Source of the DNA: an uncultured Anaeroplasmataceae bacterium
Lineage (GTDB): Bacteria; Bacillota_I; Bacilli_A; Acholeplasmatales; Anaeroplasmataceae
DNA: 64,000 nt
Direction of reading: 5' to 3'
Assembly (NCBI GenBank): GCA_944325035.1
Contig: CALUYM010000002.1
Span: forward strand, 133,329 to 197,328
The translations under genes were made by a program, and so were the position numbers. Below, one piece after another: positions 22,043 to 24,963 of this stretch. The notes under the pieces are model-generated. The model worked only from the letters and a program-made list of their open reading frames with translations, did not search any database and was not told where the DNA came from. Positions within the stretch are counted from its first letter, which is position 1, and the number at the start of each line of letters is the position of its first letter.

Positions 22043-22339
22043 ATGAAATTGATTTATGGTGATTGTGGAACAGGAAAAACACGTGAAATTTTAAAAATAT
22101 CAAGTGAAACAAGAATACCAGTACTTTGTGAGTCTAGTGCTAGAAAAGCTCGTTTGCTTGAAAAAGCTAAAGGGTATGGATTAAATATTCCAACTCCAGT
22201 AGTATTTAATGAGGATTTAAGTAATATTAAAGAAGTTTTAGTAGATGATCCTAAGCGACTAATGGAAGAAGTTTTTAATGTTGAACTGAAAGGAATTTCG
22301 GTTAATGTTTCAGTGAGTGATGTAGTGAAGTTGAACTAA
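22043..22339 (+). CDS. Small P-loop protein of unknown function (98 aa)
   Basis: The N-terminus reads KLIYGDCGTGKTREIL, a good Walker A (GxxGxGKT). After it come a short segment with basic residues (SSARKARLLEKAK) and a possible Walker-B-like LVDDPK at about 69. At 98 residues it is far too short for a normal P-loop ATPase fold, yet the frame is intact with a good RBS (GAAAGAAGG) and its own AT-rich promoter region. It may be a nucleotide-binding accessory protein or the residual front end of a larger ATPase. I do not recognise a family. Confidence 0.7.
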   Translation: MKLIYGDCGTGKTREILKISSETRIPVLCESSARKARLLEKAKGYGLNIPTPVVFNEDLSNIKEVLVDDPKRLMEEVFNVELKGISVNVSVSDVVKLN

Positions 22340-22431: not shown

Positions 22432-22460
22432 TTGACAAAAACGCTTTCATAGCATATAAT
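22432..22460 (+). promoter_or_regulatory. Near-consensus promoter of the structured small RNA
   Basis: TTGACA (22432-22437), exactly 17 bp, TATAAT (22455-22460). This is one of the strongest vegetative promoters in the window. No open reading frame starts within the next 200 bp. Confidence 0.9.
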
Positions 22461-22466
22461 ACAAGT

Positions 22467-22634
22467 ACAAGGAAAAGATTTACAGGTTCCTTAGGGATAA
22501 GTTCAAAAAACTTATAAAACGGATCTTTAATAGACTTAGCTATTAAAGGGAGTTTGGCACCTGATGGTTAGTGCTTAGCCATTCTAAGTAAAAGAGCACG
22601 AGGAAAGAATCATATTAATGGTTCTTTCTTTTTA
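22467..22634 (+). ncRNA. Structured small RNA with two predicted pseudoknots, unknown family
   Basis: A transcription unit of about 165 nt bounded by a consensus promoter and an intrinsic terminator, with no RBS or ORF. Predicted pairings: 22469-22474 with 22487-22492; 22497-22502 with 22510-22515; a perfect 9-bp stem 22525-22533 with 22540-22548; and 22564-22569 with 22577-22582. The loop ACTTAG (22534-22539) is the exact complement of CTAAGT at 22584-22589. The loop GTGCT (22571-22575) is the exact complement of AGCAC at 22595-22599. CAGG (22483-22486) may pair with CCTG (22560-22563). I could not match it to T-box, 6S, SRP RNA, tmRNA or glmS motifs from memory; the raiA-motif class is a candidate to test. 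Confidence 0.8.
22603..22634 (+). terminator. Terminator of the small RNA
   Basis: GAAAGAATCAT pairs with ATGGTTCTTTC (11 bp, one G-U), followed by T-rich sequence. It rules out the long in-frame extension of holA that would start inside this hairpin. Confidence 0.88.
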
Positions 22635-22680: not shown

Positions 22681-23625
22681 ATGCATCCAATTTATGTTTT
22701 AGTCGGACAAAATAAAATTAAATTAAATGAAGAAGTCAATAACCTAATTAAGGATGAAACTGATGCGGATATTATTAATTTTGATTTAGAAGAGTCATCA
22801 GTTGCGAATATGCTTGAAGAGATTAACATGATTCCTTTTTTATATTCTAAAAAAATAGTTATCGTAAAAAATCCGATTATTTTAACGAATCCGACAAAAT
22901 ACGATGAAAAATTAGTTATGTCTTTTATTTCTTATCTTAATCATCCGGTTGACACAACTACCCTAATTTTTAAAATTAATTCCTTAAAAGATGTAAATCT
23001 TAAAATGCTTAAAGAATTGAAAAACACTTCAATTATCAAAGAAATCCAAAATCCTACAGATATAAATTTACAAGATTATATTACAAATTCATTTTATGAA
23101 GATGGTTACATCTTAGATAGTTTAGTAGTCGATGAGTTAATAGAAAGAACAAAGGGGAATCCAGATCGCTTAGAGTTGGAGATAGATAAATTAAAAACGT
23201 ATAAATATGATACAAAAAAGATTTTGAATGCAGATGTTAGGTTGCTAGTATCTAAAGAGTTAGATGATAATATTTTTGAATTAGTTAATGCGGTACTTGA
23301 AAATGATATATTAAAAGTTTTTTCAATATTTAATGATTTAATGGTATTAAACACTAGTGAAACTGTAATCCTCGCTTTACTTATTTCCAAATTTAATGAA
23401 TTATATCAAGTGAAAACTTTAACAAAAGCAGGAATGACTAAAAATGAAATAGCAGATTTATTTAAAGTTAAGCCTGGACGAATATATTATTTGCAAAAAG
23501 CAGCCGAACAAATTAGTTTAGAAGTTTTAAAAAGTAACATAAATCAATTGACAGAATTAGATTATAAGATAAAAACAGGACAAATTGATAAGAGATTAGG
23601 AGTAGAACTATTTTTATTAAAATAG
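22681..23625 (+). CDS. holA: DNA polymerase III delta subunit
   Basis: 314 residues from the ATG at 22681 (MHPIYVLVGQNK). The upstream in-frame ATG at 22618 lies in the RNA terminator and is rejected. AAA+-like fold without a Walker A, as expected for delta: N-terminal module 1-140, lid, and C-terminal collar (about 210-314). It opens the beta clamp in the clamp loader. A TATACT-like -10 near 22650 and GGACGTGAG as RBS precede it. Its place before rpsT is conserved in Bacilli. Confidence 0.93.
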   Translation: MHPIYVLVGQNKIKLNEEVNNLIKDETDADIINFDLEESSVANMLEEINMIPFLYSKKIVIVKNPIILTNPTKYDEKLVMSFISYLNHPVDTTTLIFKINSLKDVNLKMLKELKNTSIIKEIQNPTDINLQDYITNSFYEDGYILDSLVVDELIERTKGNPDRLELEIDKLKTYKYDTKKILNADVRLLVSKELDDNIFELVNAVLENDILKVFSIFNDLMVLNTSETVILALLISKFNELYQVKTLTKAGMTKNEIADLFKVKPGRIYYLQKAAEQISLEVLKSNINQLTELDYKIKTGQIDKRLGVELFLLK

Positions 23626-23955: not shown

Positions 23956-24082
23956 AAAATTCACCTCCGCGTATAATTGCTCTATAATTATATCAAAGCT
24001 TTCATTTAAATGCAAGAAGTTTTTTTTGAAATAATTGATAGACTGATTTTTTCTTTAAAAACATTTCTTTTTAACCATTTTT

Positions 24083-24112
24083 TGGATATATTTATTTTAT
24101 TTGGACATATTA
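24083..24112 (+). promoter_or_regulatory. Sigma-G/F-like promoter in front of gpr
   Basis: TGGATA (24083-24088), 17 bp, CATATTA (24106-24112). This resembles the forespore sigma-G consensus (TGAATA ... CATACTA) with one mismatch in each box. The predicted start is only about 8-10 nt before the gpr ATG, and GGTGAT at 24119-24124 sits at the very 5' end. Confidence 0.5.
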
Positions 24113-24126
24113 AAAATGGTGATAAA

Positions 24127-24963
24127 ATGCAAAGGACAGATTTAGTATGCGAAGATGCAGCAAAAGAAAATATTGTTGAAGATAGAATTAAAAGTGGAAC
24201 TTCAACAGTTTCTAAAATAGTTTTAGATGAACAACAAGCTAAAAAATATCATAAAAAAGCTGGTACATATTATACAATTTATTCAGATGCTGTTTTAAAA
24301 ATTGAGCATAAGCGCTTTGAAGATCTTTATAAAGCTCTAGCTAAAATTATTAAAGATTTTTTAAAACTATATAGCATTAAGAAAGATGATCCCGTTTTTA
24401 TAGTAGGTTTAGGAAATTATGAGGTTACACCTGATAGTTTAGGTCCTAAGGTAATTGATATGTTGCTTGTTACAAGACATTTGGCCAAAATGGGAAAATT
24501 AGAAGAAGATATGCAAAATGTCTTAGCTTTAGCTCCAGGAGTCATGGCGCAAACAGGCGTGGAAAGTGTTGATATTTGTAAAGCAATAGTTGATAAAGTA
24601 AAGCCAAAATTAGTAATTGTTGTTGATGCGCTTGCATCTAGGAGTTTAGAAAGACTTAATCAAACAATTCAAATAACTGATACGTCCATTAGGCCGGGTT
24701 CAGGTGTTGGGAATAATAGAAAAGAGTTTTCGAAAGATACTTTAGGTGTACCTGTATTGTGTATTGGGGTTCCAACAGTAGTTGATATTAGAAGTTATGT
24801 TGAAGAATTAATGGAAAAGTTTCAAACCAAAGATGTAAGTCCAGTTATAACTGAAAATGAAGATATCCAGTTTATGGTTACTCCCAAAGAAATTGACCAA
24901 AATATTATCGATTTATCACATGTCATTTCAGATGGATTAAATTTAGCTTTACATCACCGATAA
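24127..24963 (+). CDS. gpr: Spore germination protease Gpr (SASP endopeptidase)
   Basis: 278 residues from the ATG at 24127. The longer frame from 24010 adds a 39-residue hydrophobic extension with no RBS. Diagnostic segments are VGLGNYEVTPDSLGP, LAPGVMAQTGVES, VIVVDALASRSLERLN, GSGVGNNRKEFS and MVTPKEID near the end. Gpr degrades small acid-soluble proteins during germination. The protein is shorter than B. subtilis Gpr (about 370): an internal segment before VTPKE is missing, and the propeptide before the RTD cleavage region is nearly absent (MQRTDL). Confidence 0.95.
   Translation: MQRTDLVCEDAAKENIVEDRIKSGTSTVSKIVLDEQQAKKYHKKAGTYYTIYSDAVLKIEHKRFEDLYKALAKIIKDFLKLYSIKKDDPVFIVGLGNYEVTPDSLGPKVIDMLLVTRHLAKMGKLEEDMQNVLALAPGVMAQTGVESVDICKAIVDKVKPKLVIVVDALASRSLERLNQTIQITDTSIRPGSGVGNNRKEFSKDTLGVPVLCIGVPTVVDIRSYVEELMEKFQTKDVSPVITENEDIQFMVTPKEIDQNIIDLSHVISDGLNLALHHR

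Follow-up and report, generated by a model that had tools for sequence, protein, structure and literature searches.

Catabolite-controlled small RNAs of Gram-positive bacteria lie in intergenic regions, where each has its own promoter with a cre-like site and an intrinsic terminator, and their usual mode of action is through an open antisense seed. A second point of comparison is the free-standing raiA RNA (ModT), in which the loop of hairpin P3 forms a pseudoknot of seven pairs (PMC11751092) and which is transcribed from a sigma-A promoter with carbon-source-dependent expression (PMC11706538).

The candidate RNA gene analysed here lies within a window of 64,000 nucleotides, the whole stretch of DNA that was analysed, where it is flanked by a small P-loop gene on one side and holA on the other. 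It is made up of a promoter and a predicted RNA of approximately 165-168 nt whose 3' end is formed by an intrinsic terminator. The features of the locus, all on the plus strand, are as follows.

22043..22339, plus strand: small P-loop protein gene, the upstream neighbour (phrog_1828, E=6.7e-13), in the same place in all three genomes
22432..22460, plus strand: sigma-70 promoter TTGACA-17-TATAAT, 12/12 match, kept in the two homologues
22436..22449, plus strand: cre-like (LacI/CcpA-family) site CAAAAACGCTTTCA in the promoter spacer, 9/11 fixed positions
22467..22634, plus strand: predicted RNA, approximately 168 nt, with a putative start 7 nt past the -10 box and its end in the T tract
22471..22473, plus strand: P0 5' strand GGA, predicted to pair with 22583-22585 by RNAalifold and in the MFE folds of G001 and G002
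22474..22493, plus strand: P1 hairpin, 22474-22478 with 22489-22493, two GC<->AU double changes
22497..22515, plus strand: P2 hairpin ATAAGTT/AACTTAT, variable in length
22517-22520 with 22552-22555, plus strand: P3a, one double compensatory change
22524-22533 with 22540-22549, plus strand: P3, a long hairpin that includes the 9-bp stem, three double compensatory changes
22534..22539, plus strand: P3 loop ACTTAG, 5' strand of pseudoknot 1, pairing with 22584-22589, 100% of cells paired
22564..22582, plus strand: P4 hairpin ATGGTT/AGCCAT with the 7-nt loop AGTGCTT, paired residues the same in 3/3
22571..22575, plus strand: GTGCT, proposed 5' strand of pseudoknot 2, GC core only
22584..22589, plus strand: CTAAGT, 3' strand of pseudoknot 1, pairing with 22534-22539
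22595..22599, plus strand: AGCAC, proposed 3' strand of pseudoknot 2, GC core only
22600..22634, plus strand: intrinsic terminator, of other sequence but in the same place in the homologues
22681..23625, plus strand: holA, DNA polymerase III delta subunit (PF06144 and PF21694)

A first-pass annotation of this DNA had described a free-standing RNA with a consensus promoter, an intrinsic terminator, no ORF, a perfect 9-bp stem and two hairpin loops complementary to downstream strands. Each of these elements was located: the promoter was the best in the 2-kb region, the terminator was called at 22600-22631, the stem occupies 22525-22533/22540-22548, and both loops have their complements at the positions listed. 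The gap contains no ORF of at least 60 aa; a frame called at 22618 represents holA read from an alternative start further upstream. Further downstream, a spore germination protease (PF03418) is encoded at 24010-24963; the closest named holA relatives of the source genome include Izimaplasma and other Mollicutes-related MAGs, and a spore gene there is of interest.

A DNA search of 60 relatives returned a syntenic piece in one congener. When the regions upstream of holA were inspected, the same RNA was found in G001 and G002, the two further genomes of the genus that were searched, and in all three genomes it is flanked by the same P-loop gene and holA and lies on the same strand as holA. The placement next to holA given in the first-pass annotation thus held throughout the genus but not beyond it: among the 30 holA loci read, those of other genera of the family have different preceding genes and no such RNA. 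The P-loop gene of other genera is followed by short terminators only, and a similar RNA was not seen there. As the RNA adjoins holA in this genus only, no link to holA function follows. The holA proteins of the window and its congeners are 49% identical. Between G001 and G002, the RNA core is 83.6% identical compared with 59% for holA third positions, which indicates that the core is under constraint.

A covariance model (R2) scored 130.2, 138.4 and 142.6 bits in the three carriers, the same three sequences that built it. Outside the genus the best score was 29 bits among the 60 relatives, 160 genomes of the order, 395 sampled from the class and 392 sampled from the phylum; the larger scans scored 8-21 candidates per genome, so that remote relatives could be missed. 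The weak matches that were inspected were coding-like or unrelated, one of the coding-like examples being a ttcA-like gene seen in both L071 and L084. Plasmids, phages and viral contigs were also searched at the DNA level and gave no match to the RNA. Within the sensitivity of these scans, the RNA appears to be restricted to the genus.

The predicted fold was better than that of shuffled sequences in all three RNAs, with z = -3.68 for the window and -3.09 and -2.51 for the homologues. The first-pass annotation had also held that such a density of pairing in an AT-rich gap was not expected by chance, a claim that dinucleotide shuffles did not confirm. Of 2000 shuffles, 159 (8%) contained a hairpin loop matched exactly by a complement of at least 6 nt further downstream, and 31 (1.6%) contained two loops with complements of 6+ and 5+ nt; under the same rule, the real MFE fold gave 6 and 4. 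Since roughly 8% of shuffles of one sequence contain a loop complement this long, comparison with the homologues was needed.

The structure comprising P1, P3a, P3, P4 and pseudoknot 1 was tested on an alignment of the three sequences (A2), two of which are close. Pairing was found in 94.6% of cells, and eight pairs showed changes in both partners (mean of 2.8 in shuffles, with 0/500 reaching eight), although an alignment of this size, with two close members, offers few independent events. The double changes were distributed over P1 (two), P3a (one), P3 (three) and pseudoknot 1 (two), the last being 22534/22589 (AU<->UA) and 22538/22585 (AU<->GC). Slid versions of the structure had 37-48% of cells paired and no more than three double changes, a control biased in favour of the structure, which was drawn partly from these same sequences; more weight falls on the double changes. 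The predicted hairpins P1, P3a and P3, together with pseudoknot 1, are supported by this covariation. Of the two interlocked pseudoknots proposed in the first-pass annotation, the first was retained on the strength of its two double compensatory changes, while pseudoknot 2 (GTGCT/AGCAC) is not supported by the alignment, its central GC/GC alone pairing in all three species. The broader proposal, a structured RNA equipped with a promoter and a terminator of its own, was backed by both the syntenic homologues and the covariation.

The remaining elements were more variable or less informative. P1 has three pairs in the window genome and five in the homologues. P2 is a hairpin in all three RNAs, with GCACC/GGTGC and GCAC/GTGC in the homologues; it differs in length and sequence and is not alignable column by column. 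The paired residues of P4 are identical in all three sequences and for that reason provide no covariation evidence. Unguided RNAalifold recovered P1, P3a, P3 and P4 and also proposed P0, a short helix that would close the junction (22471-22473 with 22583-22585), which has two nucleotides in common with pseudoknot 1 and is unproven, as it shows no double changes. Overall, the core of approximately 130 nt is predicted to form four hairpins, and a pseudoknot ties the third hairpin's loop to the strand just past the fourth.

Small peptide genes were also considered. No small ORF was conserved among the three sequences, a 24-codon frame in G001 being shifted in G002 and missing from the window, and a peptide gene was rejected on this basis. 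Separately, an open frame MV(K/N)AKPFQEQKLWAFEKRPFF runs from the P4 ATG through the terminator in both congeners (L004 and L005). Its counterpart in the window meets a stop after four codons and has no apparent ribosome site; the frame is probably non-coding.

The promoters of the homologues are TTGACA/TAGAAT and TTGACA/TAAAAT, each matching at 11/12 positions. The promoter spacer CAAAARCGCTTWCA is conserved and the DNA further upstream is not. Within the spacer, the cre-like site corresponds to CAAAAGCGCTTTCA and CAAAAGCGCTTACA in the homologues. Compared with the cre consensus TGAAANCGNTTNCA, an operator of the TGWAANCGNTNNCA type, 9/11 fixed positions are matched and the TG is missing, with p ~0.015 per sequence, the sequences not being independent. 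CcpA-like proteins in the carriers scored 288-290 bits (G000 and G002), below the NCBI ccpA cut-off of 442 bits. We infer CcpA-type regulation through the cre-like site.

In several other genera, cre-like motifs also precede the P-loop gene, the best being in genus g3, which suggests a shared regulator. The P-loop genes often have a cre-like site over the promoter and their own terminator. The P-loop protein belongs to a phage family (phrog_1828) that also occurs in Clostridioides phages; it gave good scores in 18 genomes from two families of the order, and two further matches were weak. In each of the three genomes, perfect palindromes TGAAAACGTTTTCA (L127, L128, L130 and L131) adjoin genes for small heat-shock-like proteins, near their apparent promoters. 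These perfect sites are few and stand beside mixed genes, and consequently no regulon is defined by them.

Taking these data together, we hold with moderate confidence that the locus is a free-standing small RNA gene that acts in trans, so far in one genus only. The promoter, fold and terminator are conserved and there is no ORF, as expected of a trans-acting structured sRNA. A stable transcript of approximately 165 nt would be made from the sigma-70 promoter and would act through its folded core by binding a protein or mRNAs. Conservation falls on the fold, together with P4 and its flank, rather than on one open seed. A CcpA-type regulator bound at the cre-like site between -35 and -10 would repress transcription; with the promoter so repressed, the RNA would rise once the preferred carbon source runs out. 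That the gene is free-standing is likely, short of proven, given that it might instead be a cis leader of holA.

As such a leader, the pseudoknotted core would act as a sensor, of a protein or in the manner of a riboswitch, and the terminator would set transcription into holA. This is a possible but rather unlikely alternative. The RNA lies directly upstream of holA on the same strand in 3/3 genomes, its compact pseudoknotted domain is followed directly by a terminator, which in the window ends 47 nt before the holA start codon, and, from the P-loop gene to holA, its promoter is the sole consensus one on the plus strand. The lack of a consensus plus-strand holA promoter between terminator and start codon leaves room for a leader role. 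However, pairing between the terminator 5' arm and the core was no better than in shuffles (p 0.19, 0.53 and 0.61), there was no conserved antiterminator, and the terminator arm sequences are not homologous. A -10-like TATACT/TATAAT is also found between the terminator and holA in 3/3, and, among the 30 loci read, a leader at holA was present in no other genus of the family.

In both congeners, the holA leader also contains an 11/12 sigma-70 promoter aimed back over the terminator and the RNA (L004:1467-1496, minus strand, and L005:2447-2476, plus strand). A possible antisense transcript could arise from it; this back-facing promoter was not seen in the window.

A more ambitious version, which we regard as speculative and doubtful, is that the RNA represents a new structured class in which the loop-to-3'-strand pseudoknot ties the junction, possibly with a switch between P0 and pseudoknot 1. 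Such an RNA would sense or bind something and link carbon status to replication (holA) or to the adjacent phage-derived P-loop protein.

It is improbable that the RNA is a diverged member of a known family, such as raiA/ModT, 6S, T-box or a riboswitch, missed by its model. The idea draws on the seven-pair P3-loop pseudoknot (PMC11751092) and sigma-A promoter (PMC11706538) of raiA, and on the failure to detect 6S RNA (RF00013) in the three carrier genomes, which makes a substitute conceivable. Against it, no Rfam match at gathering level was found in the 64 kb window, and permissive scans of all three RNAs gave chance-level matches only, in agreement with the earlier statement that the RNA is not a recognisable T-box, 6S, SRP, tmRNA or glmS RNA. 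The raiA motif (RF03072), singled out earlier as a candidate, gave no match at E<=10 in the 60 relatives, the three carriers included. The long enclosing P1 and the raiA/comFC locus of raiA are lacking, as is the long bulged hairpin of 6S, and a second pseudoknot like that of the raiA core is not supported. No mention of a holA RNA motif was found in the literature searched.

That the locus is a plain spacer without function, in which a terminator and chance pairings happen to occur, is very improbable: loop complements of this length do occur in about 8% of shuffles, but the conserved core, the double compensatory changes and the retention of promoter and position in three species argue that this reading is refuted for the core, unless the alignment is fortuitous. 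Least credible of all is a CsrA sponge whose several GGA triplets in loops and junctions would titrate CsrA, as the 5-6 GGA per RNA hardly exceed shuffle means of 3.3-4.1 and CsrA was above cut-off in none of the three genomes.

The RNA may represent a new family of structured bacterial RNAs from an uncultured lineage, one that Rfam does not contain and that already has one pseudoknot backed by compensatory changes. Should its expression prove to be under carbon control, a lineage without recognisable 6S or raiA RNA would have its own RNA regulator. The general weight of the RNA is limited by its narrow range of one genus.

Among known systems, 6S RNA (RF00013) is similar in size and intergenic location but has a long hairpin with a central open bubble, which is absent here, where no match was found. 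A terminating riboswitch likewise has a compact pseudoknotted domain and then a terminator upstream of a gene; it differs in its alternative antiterminator pairing, which was not found here, and the present RNA has no Rfam match. Catabolite-controlled sRNAs share the promoter with a cre-like site, the intrinsic terminator and the intergenic location, whereas here the operator is predicted and a compact pseudoknotted fold, not an open seed, is conserved. From raiA/ModT, the RNA differs in site (typically between raiA and comFC, here P-loop gene/holA in 3/3), in closing helix (a long enclosing P1 compared with a 3-bp P0 that is predicted only), in pseudoknots (two in the raiA core, while pseudoknot 2 is not conserved here) and in range (over 2,500 species compared with three species of one genus). 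The resemblance to raiA is one of layout, not of membership: raiA is, and the present RNA probably is, a free-standing RNA of similar size (~210 nt and ~165 nt) with a sigma-A-type promoter, and in both a strand lying further 3' forms a pseudoknot of six or seven pairs with the loop of a long hairpin.
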